From: Sphingobacteriales bacterium
GTDB taxonomy: Bacteria; Bacteroidota; Bacteroidia; Sphingobacteriales; Sphingobacteriaceae
Direction of reading: 5' to 3'
DNA: 64,000 bases
Assembly (NCBI GenBank): GCA_026390835.1
Contig: JAPLFD010000015.1
Span: forward strand, 1 to 64,000
Shown here one piece after another: positions 41,426-59,821 of the stretch. The notes beneath the pieces were generated by a model, which did no database searches, was not told where the DNA came from, and saw nothing but the letters and a program-made list of their open reading frames with translations. Each line of letters begins with the position of its first letter. Position 1 is the stretch's first letter. Both the position numbers and the translations under genes were made by a program.

Positions 41426-41773
41426 ATGAAAACAATTTTTACAGTAGCGCTTTTTGCCATAATAAGTATGGGAAGTGCTTGTTCTAAAAAAAATGACGTT
41501 ACAACTCCACCGATAGATATTATCGGACAATATTCACTAGGTACTGTTACTGCGGGTGGTAGCGATAACTCTCTAGCTACCATAAATGCTGATGGAACTA
41601 TTACAACAGCAGGACAGTTTGGGAATGGAACTTGGGTATTAAAATCTAAACATTTCACTGCCACATTGTCGAACGTTAAATTAGAGGGAGATATAAGCAA
41701 TATGTCGCCATTAAAGATTGAGGGAGCTGTTTCTGGATCTATGATTGGTACTTTTACACTTATGCCTCTTTAG
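41426..41773 (+). CDS. small hypothetical lipoprotein
   Basis: A 115-residue protein with an SPII signal (IISMGSAC, lipid cysteine at 19) followed by SKKNDVTTPP. The mature part looks like a small lipocalin/META-like beta-sandwich: IIGQYSLGTVTAGGSD, GTITTAGQFGNGTWVLKS, SGSMIGTFTLMPL. No family recognised. The stop codon shares TTAG with the convergent nadR-like gene. Confidence 0.72.
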   Translation: MKTIFTVALFAIISMGSACSKKNDVTTPPIDIIGQYSLGTVTAGGSDNSLATINADGTITTAGQFGNGTWVLKSKHFTATLSNVKLEGDISNMSPLKIEGAVSGSMIGTFTLMPL

Positions 41774-42303
41774 AAATGGACTTCTAAAAAGCCGTTAATG
41801 GCCTGCACTGCCCGCTGAAATCGTACGTCCCCTTGCCCAGAAATTACGTGGTAATTGGCGTTTATAGCTTTCAACTCTTTATGCCATACTTGCATAAAAT
41901 GTTCCCGTTGGTTAGGGAAATCTCGTAAGGGGTCTTCCTCCCAAGGTAAATCTACATCCATAAGCAGGTAAAAATCGTAGGTGTGTTTGGGTAATTCATC
42001 GAGCACTTCTTGTGGCGCTTTGCCAAAAAAGGCATCGCTCCAAATTTTTACAGTAATAAAGGTGGTGTCGCAAATTAAGATTTTGTTGGCTTTTGGCTGC
42101 AGTTCTTTTTCCAAGGCCACTTGCCCGTGAAACATGTTAATTTCATCTTGCCAGGTACAAGGAGCTGTCAATTTTTCGCAGTATTCGCGGGCATACTCGG
42201 GCACCCATACGGTATGGTAGTGTGCAGCTAATAGAGCAGAAATACTCGATTTCCCGGTAGATTCGGGCCCAACAATGGCTATTTTTTTTATACCCTTGCT
42301 CAT
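41770..42303 (-). CDS. NadR-like P-loop ATPase (probable ribosylnicotinamide kinase)
   Basis: A 177-residue AAA-type nucleotide kinase with Walker A GPESTGKSS (13-21), VWVPEYAREY and DTTFITVKIW, and the lid-like DLPWEEDPLRDFP segment. It corresponds to the ribosylnicotinamide kinase part of NadR without the HTH or NMN adenylyltransferase domains. It overlaps pnuC by four bases, so the pair would import nicotinamide riboside and trap it by phosphorylation. The predicted substrate rests on this pairing. Confidence 0.85.
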   Translation of the reverse strand: MSKGIKKIAIVGPESTGKSSISALLAAHYHTVWVPEYAREYCEKLTAPCTWQDEINMFHGQVALEKELQPKANKILICDTTFITVKIWSDAFFGKAPQEVLDELPKHTYDFYLLMDVDLPWEEDPLRDFPNQREHFMQVWHKELKAINANYHVISGQGDVRFQRAVQAINGFLEVHF

Positions 42304-42899
42304 GCTTTTTGTTGGTTAAACTCTTTCCGCCAAGCTAAATAACCTATGAGCGCAATGTAAATGTATAAGGCATACATGCCTGCGGTAAGGTGTAAGCCTT
42401 TGGCTAGGTATACACCTACATAAATAATATCAACAAAAATCCAAATAAGCCAGTTTTCCAGCACTTTACGTGCTAAGAAAATTTGTGCTACTAGGCTACA
42501 GGCGGTGCAAAAACTATCAACAAAGGGGAAAGAAGCATCGGTTTTATGGTAAAGAAAAAAGCCAATAAGGGCTGTAAATACGACTATCCCAAGCAGTGAA
42601 AGCAGAATTTCTGTTTTACTAATACGCTTTACGGGTACCTTGGGCGCATCGGCGGGTTTCCTACTCCAAAACCACCAGCCGTACATGTTCATGGCTAAGA
42701 AATATACTTGTAAGCCGGTATCGGCATAGAGTTTGGCTTCTAAAAAAATAACAATATAAATGCCCACACTTACAATGGCAATGGGCCAATTCCAAATGTT
42801 ATTTTTGGCGGCTAAATACACGCACAAAATGCCCGTAATTACGCCAATTGTTTCCAAAAGTGACTGCTCTTGCAGCCAGGTGCTTAGTGTTTCAATCAC
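42300..42899 (-). CDS. pnuC: PnuC family vitamin transporter (nicotinamide riboside-type)
   Basis: A 199-residue membrane protein with about seven helices of the PnuC/SWEET-like fold: IGVITGILCVYLAAKNNIWNWPIAIVSVGIYI, QVYFLAMNMYGWWFW and ENWLIWIFVDIIYVGVYL as the pore-side tryptophan motifs. PnuC proteins carry out facilitated diffusion of vitamins, and the linked kinase traps the substrate. The neighbour is nadR-like, favouring nicotinamide riboside over thiamin. The start codon is GTG, overlapping the stop of a short upstream frame as GTGA. Confidence 0.9.
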   Translation of the reverse strand: MIETLSTWLQEQSLLETIGVITGILCVYLAAKNNIWNWPIAIVSVGIYIVIFLEAKLYADTGLQVYFLAMNMYGWWFWSRKPADAPKVPVKRISKTEILLSLLGIVVFTALIGFFLYHKTDASFPFVDSFCTACSLVAQIFLARKVLENWLIWIFVDIIYVGVYLAKGLHLTAGMYALYIYIALIGYLAWRKEFNQQKA

Positions 42900-54529: not shown

Positions 54530-54656
54530 AACCATCAAATAGGGGTGCCTTGTTTCTTGCAAACACAAAAACGGGCTGAGATTATACCCATTTGATAGTT
54601 CTAGGTTTTGCGAACTATCAAAGCACCTGATCCGGATAATGCCGGCGTAGGGAAGG
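54530..54656 (+). promoter_or_regulatory. TPP (THI-box) riboswitch
   Basis: All conserved parts of the thiamin pyrophosphate aptamer are present in order: AGGGGTGCC (54540-54548), GGGCTGAGATTATACCC (from about 54573; CTGAGA binds the pyrimidine), and CACCTGATCCGGATAATGCC plus GGCGTAGGGAAGG (54624-54656; binds the diphosphate). The variable stem is TTTGATAGTTC (54591-54601) / GAACTATCAAA (54612-54622). Downstream, AAAATTTAA (54658-54666) can pair with TTAAATTTT (54700-54708) just ahead of the ATG at 54722, a candidate expression platform acting on translation. It should repress the TonB-receptor operon when TPP is plentiful. Confidence 0.97.
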
Positions 54657-54721
54657 TAAAAATTTAATATAAATTGCTTTTACCCCTTTAAAGCGATGGT
54701 TAAATTTTAAAATCAAAAAAG

Positions 54722-57088
54722 ATGAAAAAAGGATTATTCGTTGCGCTATTGGCGATGCTTTTGCCGGTAATAGCCTGTGCGCAACTTACTTTTAGCGGGA
54801 AAGTGCTCGATGCCCGTACACAAGCAGGCTTAGCGGGTGCCTCGGTAAGTTTAAGTACAAAAGTACAGCGTGCTAGCGACAAGAATGGAGGCTTTTCTTT
54901 TACTGGCCTTGCAGCTGGAAACTATGTGTTAAAGGTGAGCTTTGTAGGCTATCAACCCATAGAAAAAACCATTACTTTACCCGCCGATGGTCAAGTAGAA
55001 CTCTTTTTAAAACCCAGCATTTTCCCTGGCGATGAAGTGGTTATTAAAGCTACCAGAGCCACCGAGCAGAGTGCTACTACCTATACCAACTTGAGTAAAG
55101 CGGTTTTAGAAAAAAATAATACAGGTCAAGATTTACCCTTTGTACTCAATCAAACACCAGGCGTGGTAGTGAGTTCGGATGCCGGTACGGGCATTGGTTA
55201 TACAGGCCTCCGTATTCGGGGCAGCGACGCTTCTCGAATAAATGTTACCCTAAACGGGATCCCTTTCAATGATCCTGAAAGCCAAGCTACTTATTTTGTG
55301 AATTTACCCGATTTTGTTTCTTCGGTAGATAATATTCAGGTGCAACGTGGAGTGGGTACTTCTACCAACGGGGCTGGTGCTTTTGGGGCCAGTATAAACA
55401 TACAAACCACCGTTCGTAGAGATTCGGCCTATACCGAGCTAAACAATACCTTAGGTTCTTACCATACCCAAAAAAACACCTTAAATTTTGGCACGGGGCT
55501 GCTAAACAATCAGTTTACGTTTGATGGTCGGTTATCTAGAATTCAGTCTGACGGATACATCGATAGGGCGTCATCTAAACTAAAATCATACTTTTTAAGT
55601 GGTGCTTGGTATGGTGCCAATACCCTTATTCGGGCCAATGTATTTTCGGGTCACGAGAAAACCTACCAAGCATGGAATGGAGTACCCGAGGCAGAATTGG
55701 CTAACAACAGGACCTACAATGCCTATACCTACGCCGATCAAACGGATAATTATACCCAAGATCATTATCAGTTATTGTATGCACATAACTTTAGCCCAGC
55801 ACTTTCTTTAAGCGGTGCCTTCCATTATACCTATGGTCGGGGTTATTATGAAGAATTTAAAGTCGACCAAGATTTTGCCGATTATGGCTTAAGCCCCATG
55901 CTAATTGGCGGGAACACCATTTCTCAAACCGATTTAATCCGCCGTCGTTGGTTAGATAACGATTTTTACGGCAGCACCTTTGCTTTAAATTATACGCCTA
56001 AAAGTGGGCTAGATTTCACTTTAGGTGGCGCTTACAACGAATATAAAGGCCGTCATTTTGGTGAAATTATTTGGGCAACCTATGCATCCGATAGCCAAAT
56101 TCGCCAGCATTATTACAATAACGACGGCTTTAAAACTGATTTGAATGTGTACGCCAAATCAACCTGGCAACGTGGCCCTTGGGTAGCCTATACCGATGTG
56201 CAATATCGCCGGGTGAGTCACGAATTTGTGGGCTACGATACCAATTTGCAAAACATTCAGCAAGCTGTATCTCTAAACTTTTTTAATCCGAAGGTGGGAT
56301 TAAGCTTTCAAATCAATCCTCAGGAGCAGTTCTATGCTTCTTTGGCGGTAGCGAATAAAGAACCTAACCGTAATGATTTTGTGAATGCTACGCCAGCTAG
56401 CCGCCCCGTTTCTGAACGTTTAACCGATATAGAAGCAGGCTATCGATTTAGCCGTAGTAATTTCAGTGCAGCGCTAAACGCTTATTTTATGAAATACAAC
56501 AACCAACTTATTTTAACCGGCGCAATTAACGATGTAGGTGAGTATAGCCGCACTAACGTACCCAATAGTTATCGCTTAGGCTTTGAAGCCGAGGCCAGCT
56601 TAAAATTAAGTGAAAAATGGGCTTGGAAAGCCAACGCGACATGGAGCCAAAACAAAATTAAACGTTTTACCAATTACATAGATAATTACGATAATGGTAC
56701 GCAGATAGGCACAGAATATACACATACTGATATTGCTTTTTCGCCAGCATTCGTGGCTTCGGGCGAATGGGATTTTACCCCTTTTAAGCACGCCGAAATT
56801 GCTTTTATTGGTAAATATGTGAGTCGACAATACTTAGATAATACGTCTAGTGCGGAACGTAGAATTGGTGAAATGCTAGTCCATAACCTCCGCATTAATT
56901 ACAATTTTAAGTCAAAATTGGCAAAAAATATTGCCTTAAGTGTATTAGTTAATAACGTTTTTAACAAGAAATACGAAGCCAATGGCTATACCTTTAGTTA
57001 TATCTATGGGGGGAATTTCACTACCGAAAACTACTATTATCCGCAGGCCACACGTAATTTCTTAATTTCTTTAAACCTGAAGTTTTAA
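54722..57088 (+). CDS. TonB-dependent outer-membrane receptor, thiamin-regulated
   Basis: A 788-residue outer-membrane transporter. It has a signal peptide to about 20 (VIACAQ), a carboxypeptidase-regulatory-like domain (about 22-105, LTFSGKVLDARTQAGLAGASV), a plug (about 115-235, NTGQDLPFVLNQTPGVVVSS, GLRIRGSDASRINVTLNGIP) and a 22-strand barrel ending ATRNFLISLNLKF with the C-terminal aromatic. The TPP riboswitch in its leader implies uptake of thiamin or thiamin phosphates. It is the first gene of the operon. Confidence 0.93.
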   Translation: MKKGLFVALLAMLLPVIACAQLTFSGKVLDARTQAGLAGASVSLSTKVQRASDKNGGFSFTGLAAGNYVLKVSFVGYQPIEKTITLPADGQVELFLKPSIFPGDEVVIKATRATEQSATTYTNLSKAVLEKNNTGQDLPFVLNQTPGVVVSSDAGTGIGYTGLRIRGSDASRINVTLNGIPFNDPESQATYFVNLPDFVSSVDNIQVQRGVGTSTNGAGAFGASINIQTTVRRDSAYTELNNTLGSYHTQKNTLNFGTGLLNNQFTFDGRLSRIQSDGYIDRASSKLKSYFLSGAWYGANTLIRANVFSGHEKTYQAWNGVPEAELANNRTYNAYTYADQTDNYTQDHYQLLYAHNFSPALSLSGAFHYTYGRGYYEEFKVDQDFADYGLSPMLIGGNTISQTDLIRRRWLDNDFYGSTFALNYTPKSGLDFTLGGAYNEYKGRHFGEIIWATYASDSQIRQHYYNNDGFKTDLNVYAKSTWQRGPWVAYTDVQYRRVSHEFVGYDTNLQNIQQAVSLNFFNPKVGLSFQINPQEQFYASLAVANKEPNRNDFVNATPASRPVSERLTDIEAGYRFSRSNFSAALNAYFMKYNNQLILTGAINDVGEYSRTNVPNSYRLGFEAEASLKLSEKWAWKANATWSQNKIKRFTNYIDNYDNGTQIGTEYTHTDIAFSPAFVASGEWDFTPFKHAEIAFIGKYVSRQYLDNTSSAERRIGEMLVHNLRINYNFKSKLAKNIALSVLVNNVFNKKYEANGYTFSYIYGGNFTTENYYYPQATRNFLISLNLKF

Positions 57089-57116: not shown

Positions 57117-58763
57117 ATGAGCAGATTTAAAAACCTCCTATTTAGTTGCCTTTTTTTAAGTGCAGTAGTTGCACAAGCACAATCTAAACCGGCTAACACT
57201 TCTTTGCCGCGACCAAAATTGGTAGTAGGCTTGGTGGTAGATCAAATGCGTTGGGATTTTTTGTATCGTTATTACGACCGCTACCAATCGGGTGGTTTTA
57301 AGCGCATGCTCAACGAAGGTTTTTCTTGCGAAAATACCATGATTGATTACATTCCGACGGTTACTGCCATTGGCCATACGACCATTTATACCGGTTCTGT
57401 ACCGGCTATTCATGGCATTGCTGGCAACGATTTTATTATACAAAAAACCGGAAAATCCATGTACTGTACCGAAGACGAAACGGTACAAACCGTGGGCAGC
57501 ACGTCTAAAGCCGGAAAAATGTCTCCTAGAAACCTACTTACCACCACCATAACCGATGAGTTGAAGTTGGCCACCAATTTCAAATCAAAAGTAATTGGTA
57601 TTGCCTTAAAAGACCGTGGGGGTATTTTGCCCGCCGGCCATAGTGCCGATGCGGCTTACTGGTACGATGATTTAACAGGCGGCTGGATTACCAGTACCTA
57701 TTATATGAAGGATTTGCCTGTTTGGGTGAAAAATTTTAACGATCAGAAAAAAGCTGATGCCTATTTAAAGCAAAACTGGAATACCTTATATTCAATAGAT
57801 ACCTACACACAAAGTTTTAAAGATAACAATGCTTACGAAGGCAAACTGGCTGGGAATACCCAACCGGTATTTCCTATAATTTTAAATCAGGGTGAGCTAC
57901 CTAATTATAAACTCCTACGCACTACACCCTACGGGAATTCACTTACGCTAGATATGGCTAAAGCGGCTATTGAAAATGAGCAATTGGGTAAAAATACGGT
58001 AACTGATTTCTTAGCCGTAAGTTTATCGTCTACCGATTATATTGGTCACACCTTTGGTCCGAATTCTGTTGAAGTAGAAGATACCTATTTGCGCCTAGAC
58101 CAAGATTTTGCTAAATTTTTCGCCTACTTAGATAAAATTGTTGGGAAAGGCAATTATACTGTATTTCTTTCTGCAGATCATGGCTGTGCACACAACCCTG
58201 CTTTATTGAACGACCAAAATATTCCGGCAGGTTTATGGCCCGCAGCCAAAATCATGGCTGGGCTTAATACGCTGTTAGAAGAAAAATATCAAACCAAAAA
58301 ATTGGTATTGAGTTTAGATAATTACCAGGTAAATTTAAATAACCCCGCCATTGCCGAAGCTAAGTTAAACGAACAAGCTATTATTTCTGATTGCATTGCG
58401 TACCTGCAAAGCCAAGAAGGAGTGGCCAATGCAATTGATCAAAAGGCGGTGCAACAAGCGTCTATTCCTGATGTGTTACGTAGCCGAATTATTAATGGGT
58501 ATTATGCCGAACGCAGCGGAGCCATCCAACTCATTTTACAACCCGGTTGGTTTGCCGGTTATGGTGCTACGGGAACTACTCATGGAAGTTGGAACCCTTA
58601 CGATGCGCACATTCCTTTGGTGTTTATGGGTTGGGGGGTAAAACATGGTAAAACCAATGCCCCTACTCACATGACCGATATTGCAGCCACCTTGGCGGCA
58701 TTGTTGCATGTACAAATGCCCAACGGCAGCATTGGCACTCCGGTAAACGAACTTATTAAATAG
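57117..58763 (+). CDS. alkaline phosphatase family protein, PafA-like
   Basis: A 548-residue exported phosphatase. Signal peptide about 1-22 (VVAQAQS). It has the PafA/NPP superfamily sites: metal Asp42 (VVDQMRWDF), nucleophile T83 (PTVTAIGHTT), N104 (AGND), and K165 with R167 (ALKDRG), which together define monoesterase-type PafA. Additional metal ligands are in SSTDYIGHTFG and SADHGCAHN. The gene lies 28 bases after the TonB receptor under the TPP riboswitch, so it may strip phosphate from thiamin mono- or diphosphate in the periplasm. The substrate is inferred from position. Confidence 0.88.
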   Translation: MSRFKNLLFSCLFLSAVVAQAQSKPANTSLPRPKLVVGLVVDQMRWDFLYRYYDRYQSGGFKRMLNEGFSCENTMIDYIPTVTAIGHTTIYTGSVPAIHGIAGNDFIIQKTGKSMYCTEDETVQTVGSTSKAGKMSPRNLLTTTITDELKLATNFKSKVIGIALKDRGGILPAGHSADAAYWYDDLTGGWITSTYYMKDLPVWVKNFNDQKKADAYLKQNWNTLYSIDTYTQSFKDNNAYEGKLAGNTQPVFPIILNQGELPNYKLLRTTPYGNSLTLDMAKAAIENEQLGKNTVTDFLAVSLSSTDYIGHTFGPNSVEVEDTYLRLDQDFAKFFAYLDKIVGKGNYTVFLSADHGCAHNPALLNDQNIPAGLWPAAKIMAGLNTLLEEKYQTKKLVLSLDNYQVNLNNPAIAEAKLNEQAIISDCIAYLQSQEGVANAIDQKAVQQASIPDVLRSRIINGYYAERSGAIQLILQPGWFAGYGATGTTHGSWNPYDAHIPLVFMGWGVKHGKTNAPTHMTDIAATLAALLHVQMPNGSIGTPVNELIK

Positions 58764-59330
58764 ATGTCGTCGCACCATATCGTTAGAGAAAAACAAGAAC
58801 CAGCCCTACTCATTGTCAATTTGGCGCATTTCGCTAACGAACAATTGGGCCAATTGCTAGAGTGGAGCCCAACTGTTATGGTAACCGAAGAGGTGTATGA
58901 CTATGCCGATTCTTTGGGTATTAAAATTGATGCCGTAGTTACCCAAAATCGAAATTTTAATGCACAAGAACATACCCATATCGTGCTTACCGAGTACGAG
59001 CCATTGGAAGATGCCTTGAAATATTTGGTGGCCGAAGGCTATCCGGCGGTAAATGTTATTGCTGAAGAATTTTTGCTGAAAGACTACGTGTTATTTGTTG
59101 ATATCATCAATTTGGTGATTTTCACCTCCGATAAAAAAATTATGCCTATCCGTTCCGGATTTAGTAAATGGCAAATCGGTGGGCAAAAATTACACTTGCT
59201 CCACGATGCCAAAAATCTGCAAATAGAAGGCTTAAAACACCTCGGATTTCATGAATTCGAAACTGAAAAAGACGGCTTTTATGCCCTAACTTTTGAACAA
59301 CCCTTCTTATTTATTGCCGAAGAGTTATGA
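58764..59330 (+). CDS. thiamine pyrophosphokinase-like protein lacking catalytic motifs
   Basis: A 188-residue protein starting MSSHHIVREKQEPALLIVN, the N-terminus I recall from Sphingobacteriaceae proteins annotated as thiamine pyrophosphokinase. LLEWSPTVMVTEEVYDYADSLGIKIDAVV and YEPLEDALKYLVAEGYPAVNVI (given here as landmarks LLEWSPTVMV and LKYLVAEGYPAVNVI) align with that fold. The expected catalytic elements (DG.., GDFDS, QN.TD and GxRxDH) are replaced by TEE, TQNRN, YEPLED and EEFLLKDY. The ATG directly follows the phosphatase stop, so it belongs to the TPP operon. Probably a binding or regulatory protein rather than an active kinase. Confidence 0.65.
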   Translation: MSSHHIVREKQEPALLIVNLAHFANEQLGQLLEWSPTVMVTEEVYDYADSLGIKIDAVVTQNRNFNAQEHTHIVLTEYEPLEDALKYLVAEGYPAVNVIAEEFLLKDYVLFVDIINLVIFTSDKKIMPIRSGFSKWQIGGQKLHLLHDAKNLQIEGLKHLGFHEFETEKDGFYALTFEQPFLFIAEEL

Positions 59331-59821
59331 GTTTGAGTATTCGAACGGCAAACCCTACCGATATTTCAACCATTGGTCAGTTAGCTGAAGAAAGTTGGTG
59401 GCCAGCATACAGTTCTTTTATTTCGGCCGAACAAATTAGCTACATGCTTAAGGAGATGTATTCTCCTGAGGCCTTAACTCAACAGTTTAGCGAAGGAATC
59501 ACCTTTTTACTAGTCGAAAGAAACGAATTGGCTGTGGGTTTTGCTGCTTTTAGTGAGACCAATACGAAGGAGCAGGTTTTTAAATTGTACAAACTTTACC
59601 TTTTGCCAAGCGAACAAGGCATGGGTACGGGTAAGCTGCTTATAGAGGAGGTTAGTACTCGAGCTAAAAATTTAGGCGGGCTTATTTTGGAACTCAATGT
59701 AAACCGCGGCAATAAAGCGGTTCATTTTTATAAAAAACAAGGGTTTAACATTCATCAAAGCTTGGACATTCCGTACCACACCTTTGTGTTAAACGATTAT
59801 GTGATGCGTAAAGCCTTATAA
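59327..59821 (+). CDS. GNAT family N-acetyltransferase
   Basis: A 164-residue acyl-CoA-dependent acetyltransferase: IRTANPTDISTIGQLAEESW opening, YKLYLLPSEQGMGTGKLLIE as the acetyl-CoA motif A (Q/R-x-x-G-x-G/A), and LNVNRGNKAVHFYKKQGF at the C-terminal end. The start overlaps the previous gene as ATGA, so it is translated with the thiamin operon. Substrate unknown; a role with thiamin precursors is possible only by association. The last six bases overlap the convergent M28 gene. Confidence 0.9.
   Translation: MSLSIRTANPTDISTIGQLAEESWWPAYSSFISAEQISYMLKEMYSPEALTQQFSEGITFLLVERNELAVGFAAFSETNTKEQVFKLYKLYLLPSEQGMGTGKLLIEEVSTRAKNLGGLILELNVNRGNKAVHFYKKQGFNIHQSLDIPYHTFVLNDYVMRKAL

Follow-up and report, generated by a model that had tools for sequence, protein, structure and literature searches.

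A thiamine pyrophosphokinase fold that appears to have lost its active site, conserved in most Sphingobacteriaceae genomes sampled

What does a protein do that has kept the whole build of a thiamine pyrophosphokinase (TPK) while other residues stand where the catalytic ones are expected? The question is raised by a gene near the end of the window analysed here (64,000 nt, positions 1 to 64,000 of contig JAPLFD010000015.1, from a Sphingobacteriales bacterium of the family Sphingobacteriaceae), whose product we call pseudo-TPK. It is homologous to an enzyme, its loss of catalytic residues is conserved and it evolves under purifying selection, the features by which a pseudoenzyme is recognized. 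The reading that we favor, at a probability of roughly 0.55, is that pseudo-TPK is a TPK-derived pseudoenzyme acting through a conserved surface, as a non-catalytic adaptor.

The relationship to TPK is not visible to single-sequence searches: with pseudo-TPK as query, Pfam, NCBIfam and the PDB gave no TPK match, and these searches, like one of PHROGs, returned weak unrelated matches or none. A profile search of PDB sequences produced five weak unrelated matches, the best being a lectin (E 0.58), and none of 60 family members (0/60) matched the TPK models (PF04263 / PF04265, NCBIfam TPK) at E ≤ 0.01. Profile-to-sequence comparison gave a different picture, as hhalign aligned a profile of 60 sequences (A2) to one canonical TPK relative over 160 columns with 36% identity, a probability of 99.8 and an E-value of 9.7e-29. 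The homology to TPK is not due to chance. An AlphaFold model built from 60 sequences reached a pLDDT of 93.5 and a pTM of 0.87, and predicts a complete, full-length TPK fold with both domains. When the model was compared with the PDB by Foldseek, 24 chains were found at E ≤ 0.001: 20 carry a TPK label, and the other four come from 3cq9 (lp_1622, an unnamed protein that is also found by sequence from a canonical TPK); the best match was the TPK 2omk (E 1.4e-12). Superposition on 2omk_B with VIA-align gave a Z of 16.5 and an rmsd of 2.6 over 173 aligned residues; the first 14 entries in this ranking were TPKs or 3cq9, and the next was SteA (Z 9.2). A preliminary description of the locus, made from the sequence alone, had recognized a TPK scaffold and proposed this superposition as a check, and the profile alignment, the model and the fold match bear it out.

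TPK catalysis, according to PMC2515308, uses four strictly conserved Mg-holding aspartates together with a catalytic lysine, a gatekeeper glutamine, an arginine that contacts ATP and an asparagine near the thiamin, with both the asparagine and the glutamine contacting thiamin; the same study reports that in human TPK the RxDH aspartate takes part in thiamin binding. We mapped these residues to alignment columns by motif order rather than by alignment with the enzyme of that study. In the numbering of the alignment, the DG/DS aspartate is replaced by E42; G60 and D61 read Thr and Gln, with F62 and D63 deleted; Q86 and D90 are deleted and K93 reads Asp; and in the GxRxDH motif Gly, Arg and His read Phe, Leu and Tyr. 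The SxN motif is lost as well (Glu, Phe), leaving the window protein with none of the four Mg-binding aspartates (0/4) and without the site Lys, Gln, Arg and Asn. All four altered sites (TEE, TQNRN, YEPLED and EEFLLKDY; Table 1) had been read correctly in the preliminary description. Its statement that every catalytic motif is lost holds for these sites, and for SxN too, and is slightly too strong if extended to every residue, because the RxDH aspartate aligns with D107 of the window protein, an aspartate that is still aligned in 67 of the 99 distinct Sphingobacteriaceae sequences.

The same loss is seen well beyond this genome. In the alignment, from which duplicate sequences had been merged, the 31 distinct canonical relatives that share an MSSHH start keep all four Mg aspartates as well as the Lys, Gln, Arg and Asn (31/31 in each case). 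Among the 99 Sphingobacteriaceae sequences, 63 keep no Mg aspartate and 36 keep one; in eight sequences from a second family the figures are six and two; and each of the site K, Q, R and N is kept in 0/99 and 0/8. The proposed check of whether the motif loss is conserved across the family thus returned at most one of the four aspartates in every sequence (99/99 and 8/8). In these dead TPKs, as we call them, the GxRxDH loop and the hairpin preceding SxN are both shortened, the His118 position is Phe or Tyr in 87/99 and the Asn196 position is aromatic in 91/99. On these alignments, active-site loss is a trait of the family.

The gene is under purifying selection, with a dN/dS of 0.073 against a same-genus genome (G003), compared with 0.106-0.109 for three neighbouring genes. 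It was found in 129 of 151 family genomes sampled (122/138 among good genomes), with a single match in each, and this agrees with the earlier suggestion that it is probably selected. No listed match contains an internal stop, and the gene is kept in genomes of 1.5-1.8 Mb. Across 395 genomes of the class, 85 matched the family profile (A1): 62 with canonical, or live, TPKs and 23 with dead ones, 15 of these in Sphingobacteriaceae and eight in the second family. In a tree of 36 rows the dead TPKs form one clade (support 100/100), and they do so again (100/99) in a 33-row tree that left out three long rows as well as the motif columns. Two separate losses of the kinase site were considered, but both trees give one dead clade. 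That clade may nevertheless come from long-branch attraction, because its stem is long (0.93), the 36-row bootstrap had not settled, and in that tree one member of the window's own family (L026) groups with the second family.

A protein of this kind might be thought to assist a true TPK encoded elsewhere, as the preliminary description proposed. In the genome of the window (87.6% complete), PF04263 has a sole match at E ≤ 10, which by reading is TrmD and lies far under the cut-off, and the more complete same-genus genome (G003, 99%) has no PF04263 match at E ≤ 1. Among 60 relatives there were 26 carriers of a dead TPK and four carriers of a canonical TPK over the cut-off, with no overlap (0/26); the PF04263 matches of other carriers stayed below the cut-off (E 0.1-1). 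In the 395 genomes of the class, 0/23 dead-TPK carriers had a PF04263 match at E ≤ 1e-5. Profile A1 finds live TPKs too, as all 62 of its canonical matches overlap PF04263 match places, and yet it gave one match each in 129 genomes. The two PF04263 searches and these single matches speak against a second, recognisable TPK in the genomes sampled, and the partner hypothesis, with no sampled genome holding both proteins (0/26; 0/23), fails by its own criterion.

Table 1. Features of the pseudo-TPK locus in window coordinates
Feature	Position	Strand	Evidence
TPP riboswitch aptamer (RF00059-like), long insert	54531..54670	+	cmscan 42.3 bits, E 5.6e-6, restricted search
TonB-dependent outer-membrane receptor	54722..57088	+	PF00593, PF07715, PF13715
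PafA alkaline phosphatase	57117..58763	+	NF042991 799 bits, cut-off 650
pseudo-TPK, TPK fold without active-site residues, 188 aa (ATG 58764, stop 59330)	58764..59330	+	alignment, profile, model, fold search
pseudo-TPK N-terminal tail MSSHHIVREKQEPAL, residues 1-15	58764..58808	+	alignment, model
LLEWSP, residues 31-36, common to dead and live TPKs	58854..58871	+	alignment
TEE replacing DG/DS aspartate site, residues 41-43	58884..58892	+	alignment
TQNRN replacing GDFD, two residues deleted, residues 60-64	58941..58955	+	alignment
YEPLED replacing Q..TD..K, residues 78-83	58995..59012	+	alignment
EEFLLKDY replacing GxRxDH, residues 101-108	59064..59087	+	alignment
GNAT acetyltransferase	59327..59821	+	PF13673, PF00583

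The setting of the gene (Table 1) points to thiamin salvage. The aptamer upstream lies 51 bases before the receptor ORF and is the single RF00059 match at E ≤ 0.001 in its own genome (E 3.5e-7). It was missed by the default Rfam scan because its score is below the gathering score of 54.3; it is a real but atypical TPP riboswitch, and its presence makes the TonB receptor a putative thiamin receptor. The stop codon of PafA abuts the pseudo-TPK ATG in the same frame, and the start of the GNAT gene overlaps the pseudo-TPK end by four bases; since the distances between receptor, PafA, pseudo-TPK and GNAT genes are 28, 0 and -4 bases, the layout suggests a single transcript. Promoter and terminator scans of the locus did no better than shuffles. 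The gene had been described as translated directly after the phosphatase and under TPP control: the adjacency to PafA and the upstream riboswitch are confirmed, while control of expression is something we infer. PnuT is absent from the operon in this genome, whose sole PF04973 match (42324-42863) is on the opposite strand, next to a gene identified by eye as NadR-like; this PnuC and its NadR-like neighbour (41770-42899, minus strand) are likelier to serve nicotinamide riboside uptake than thiamin.

This arrangement recurs, in part, among relatives. Of 16 family carriers checked, 11 have, as read by hand, a same-strand RF00059 match no more than 10 kb upstream of the gene, every one at 35-45 bits and thus under the gathering score; the other five had no match within 10 kb, nor was there one near the gene in the one second-family genome searched. 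Upstream of pseudo-TPK in 80 named loci we counted a TPP pattern in 27, PafA in 31, a TonB receptor in 28 and a ThiE-like gene in 42; several of these loci are truncated, and among the 69 with at least 7.6 kb of upstream sequence the counts were 26, 28, 27 and 32. PnuT is upstream in 14/80 and missing in the window's own group, and a GNAT homologue adjoins pseudo-TPK in none of the 52 named loci with Mucilaginibacter in their title and in 23 of the other 28. In the second family (L218-L225) the TPP pattern was found in 0/8 loci, and one of the eight is near a TonB receptor and PnuT; neighbours there vary, and in 7/8 loci the searches used revealed no gene of thiamin salvage.

Several of these loci hold further genes and aptamers. 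The ThiE-like gene of 42 named loci (for example L080:7357-7992) matches PF02581 in the three proteins scanned. Its product has Thr for the Asn of the ND pair in 37/37 rows with a letter, and Leu, Phe or Met for the Lys of QxRxK in 35/35, two residues that we take to be catalytic in ThiE; comparison ThiE rows, one of them shortened and one not extracted, have both intact in 8/8 with a letter. An acyl-CoA-dehydrogenase-like protein of 365 aa (PF08028; L080:4462-5559) is encoded between PnuT and PafA, and homologues are upstream of pseudo-TPK in 14/80 named loci. Three genomes (G002, G004, G005) have a second, strong TPP riboswitch (67-70 bits). In the two loci read (L244 and L247, positions 1501-1594) this second riboswitch runs on the strand opposite to flanking arsC-like and mnmA-like genes (by eye), with no clear downstream gene. 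In two family members without pseudo-TPK (G008 and G021; L243 and L245) a TPP riboswitch is followed by methyltransferase-like and AIR-synthase/ThiL-like genes (by eye) and then by a PF02581 match.

If the active site is gone, what is selection keeping? Seventeen positions are at least 97% identical across 138 dead and live proteins (M1, S2, S3, H4, H5, Q11, E12, P13, A14, L32, E33, W34, P36, D56, K135, G171 and E186), and no catalytic position is among them. The module common to dead and live TPKs comprises MSSHH, QEPAL, LLEWSP and GIKxD. The invariance of MSSHH is partly built in, as MSSHH or QLLEWSP formed part of the patterns by which the 80 named loci were found, and the canonical set was reduced from 37 rows to 31 by requiring SHH near the start, which removed three Bacteroidales-type rows, L032, L204 and L212 (mis-extracted). 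The MSSHH start is also present where that bias does not apply, in 25 family members found by whole-protein search and in 8/8 second-family members found by profile, and the match of profile A1 to canonical genes begins at residue 1 or 2 in 58/62 (hand count). The start codon itself is firm, with no in-frame ATG, GTG or TTG upstream in 81 of 98 family sequences; one with a GTG start (L112, counted among the 99) was shortened in the alignments and actually begins (V/M)SSHH. Residues 1-6 are near-invariant in sequence, yet disordered in the model (pLDDT < 50). A constraint at the DNA level is unlikely to account for the conserved N terminus, because third positions vary in the eight sequences compared. 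The strongest argument for a conserved working surface is that the constraint falls outside the cleft, on an N-terminal module that live TPKs share; the surface may, even so, serve dimerisation or folding only.

The reading that demands least of the protein is that it is a decaying relic or an annotation artefact. The lost catalytic motifs are what such a relic would show, and the low dN/dS, the spread through 129 of 151 genomes, the intact reading frames and the retention in small genomes already contradict it, so that we find it barely credible. Another candidate is a re-invented thiamin kinase, making TMP or TPP from thiamin with new catalytic residues. Over the six genomes of the window's own genus (G000-G005; three are less than 90% complete, and G001 is 60%), ThiC, ThiE (PF02581) and an over-cut-off TPK were each found in 0/6, and ThiL, the sole TPP-forming kinase found, is present in 6/6. 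ThiL needs TMP, which leaves this genus with no visible known route from thiamin to TPP, and the gene stands behind a TPP riboswitch together with a phosphatase that would supply free thiamin. The gene is, however, not tied to this gap: by hand count, it is present in 18 and absent in 19 of the 37 genomes with neither ThiC nor TPK, and eight of the 20 genomes with ThiC have it. With at most one of four Mg aspartates, no Lys, Gln or Arg, varying positions and shortened site loops, a new kinase chemistry seems quite unlikely.

A related proposal, raised in the preliminary description, would retain the substrate cleft and give up only the chemistry, making the protein a sensor or chaperone that binds thiamin or TPP. 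The TPP-riboswitch setting and the complete two-domain fold are in keeping with this, as are the aromatic residues at two old site positions and the RxDH-aligned aspartate, the residue tied to thiamin binding in human TPK (PMC2515308). Against it, the site Asn, Gln and Arg are kept in 0/99 sequences and conservation is strongest in the N-terminal module rather than in the cleft; we consider it unlikely. The tail itself invites another idea. Once Met1 is removed, Ser-Ser-His-His has the form of an ATCUN copper/nickel site, and the protein could be a metal-responsive partner; SSHH directly follows the initiator codon, the start is mostly unambiguous and the model leaves residues 1-6 disordered, all of which would suit such a site. 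This argument leans on general rules for Met removal and for ATCUN sites, a cytosolic protein meets little free copper, and we found no open-access paper with both 'ATCUN' and 'thiamine pyrophosphokinase'; a metal role is thus very unlikely in our estimate.

The conserved-surface adaptor accommodates these observations in the following way. Mg-ATP binding and pyrophosphate transfer would have been lost, and in a small-genome host that is presumably a thiamin auxotroph the protein would be made when TPP is low, as a non-catalytic adaptor. Its working surface would be the near-invariant tail (SSHH..E.QEPAL) with LLEWSP, both also present in live TPKs of the lineage, and its candidate partners would be the receptor, the phosphatase, the GNAT neighbour or ThiL. 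A second, non-enzymatic job is probable because the fold persists after loss of the active site, is retained by most family members sampled and is often encoded in a vitamin B1 uptake operon. On a wider scale, and more tentatively, with the odds somewhat against all its parts holding, one Bacteroidota TPK lineage may have a second, kinase-independent function in its N-terminal module; the kinase would have been shed once, in an ancestor of the two families, and the module kept near-absolutely and, in Sphingobacteriaceae, wired into TPP-controlled thiamin salvage, frequently next to a ThiE paralogue that has lost catalytic residues too. It would be unusual for a bacterial family to conserve a vitamin-pathway pseudoenzyme in most of its members. 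The dead/live pair has the same constrained module, and so separates catalysis from the second function and makes the latter testable by simple deletions. It should also be noted that a TPK-family gene in these genomes is not proof that thiamin is converted to TPP.

Among the open-access literature matches listed, some of which concerned B vitamins of plants and Plasmodium, no title described an inactive TPK family. Relative to TPK proper (ThiN/Tnr3; B. thetaiotaomicron 2omk), pseudo-TPK shares the full-length fold with both domains (Z 16.5) and, at the profile level, 36% identity to a canonical relative; it differs in having none of the four Mg aspartates and no site Lys, Gln, Arg or Asn, in its shortened loops and in the missing Pfam TPK match. 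The MSSHH-type canonical TPKs of other Bacteroidota families have the same N-terminal tail, LLEWSP, GIKxD, K135, G171 and terminal Glu, but they keep all catalytic residues, and in the eight loci read (8/8) neither the TPP pattern nor PnuT or PafA was matched nearby.

The closest precedent is SteA of Actinobacteria, which has a TPK-like domain but serves as a regulator, not a TPK (it is part of SteAB, the regulator of RipA); we came to it through the fold search rather than a targeted family search, as the first non-TPK match. We take Cg1603 to be the SteA of C. glutamicum. In PMC9897464 the thiamin site of Cg1603 is described as missing and its ATP site as very different, and PMC12977500 describes a conserved pocket like the TPK nucleotide site as kept in M. 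tuberculosis SteA. The likeness has its limits, as the alignment covers no more than 111 residues of the catalytic-type domain, pseudo-TPK has lost its site residues, and phylum and setting differ. For the operon, the counterpart is the OMthi-pnuT-tnr3 thiamin salvage operon of Bacteroides, which in PMC5613172 combines a TPP riboswitch, a TonB receptor and a TPK-family gene. The window likewise has a TPP riboswitch (under the gathering score here), an upstream TonB receptor and a TPK-family gene, but its TPK-family member looks inactive, PafA and GNAT genes are added and PnuT is missing; the Bacteroides operon shows how this locus looks in intact form.
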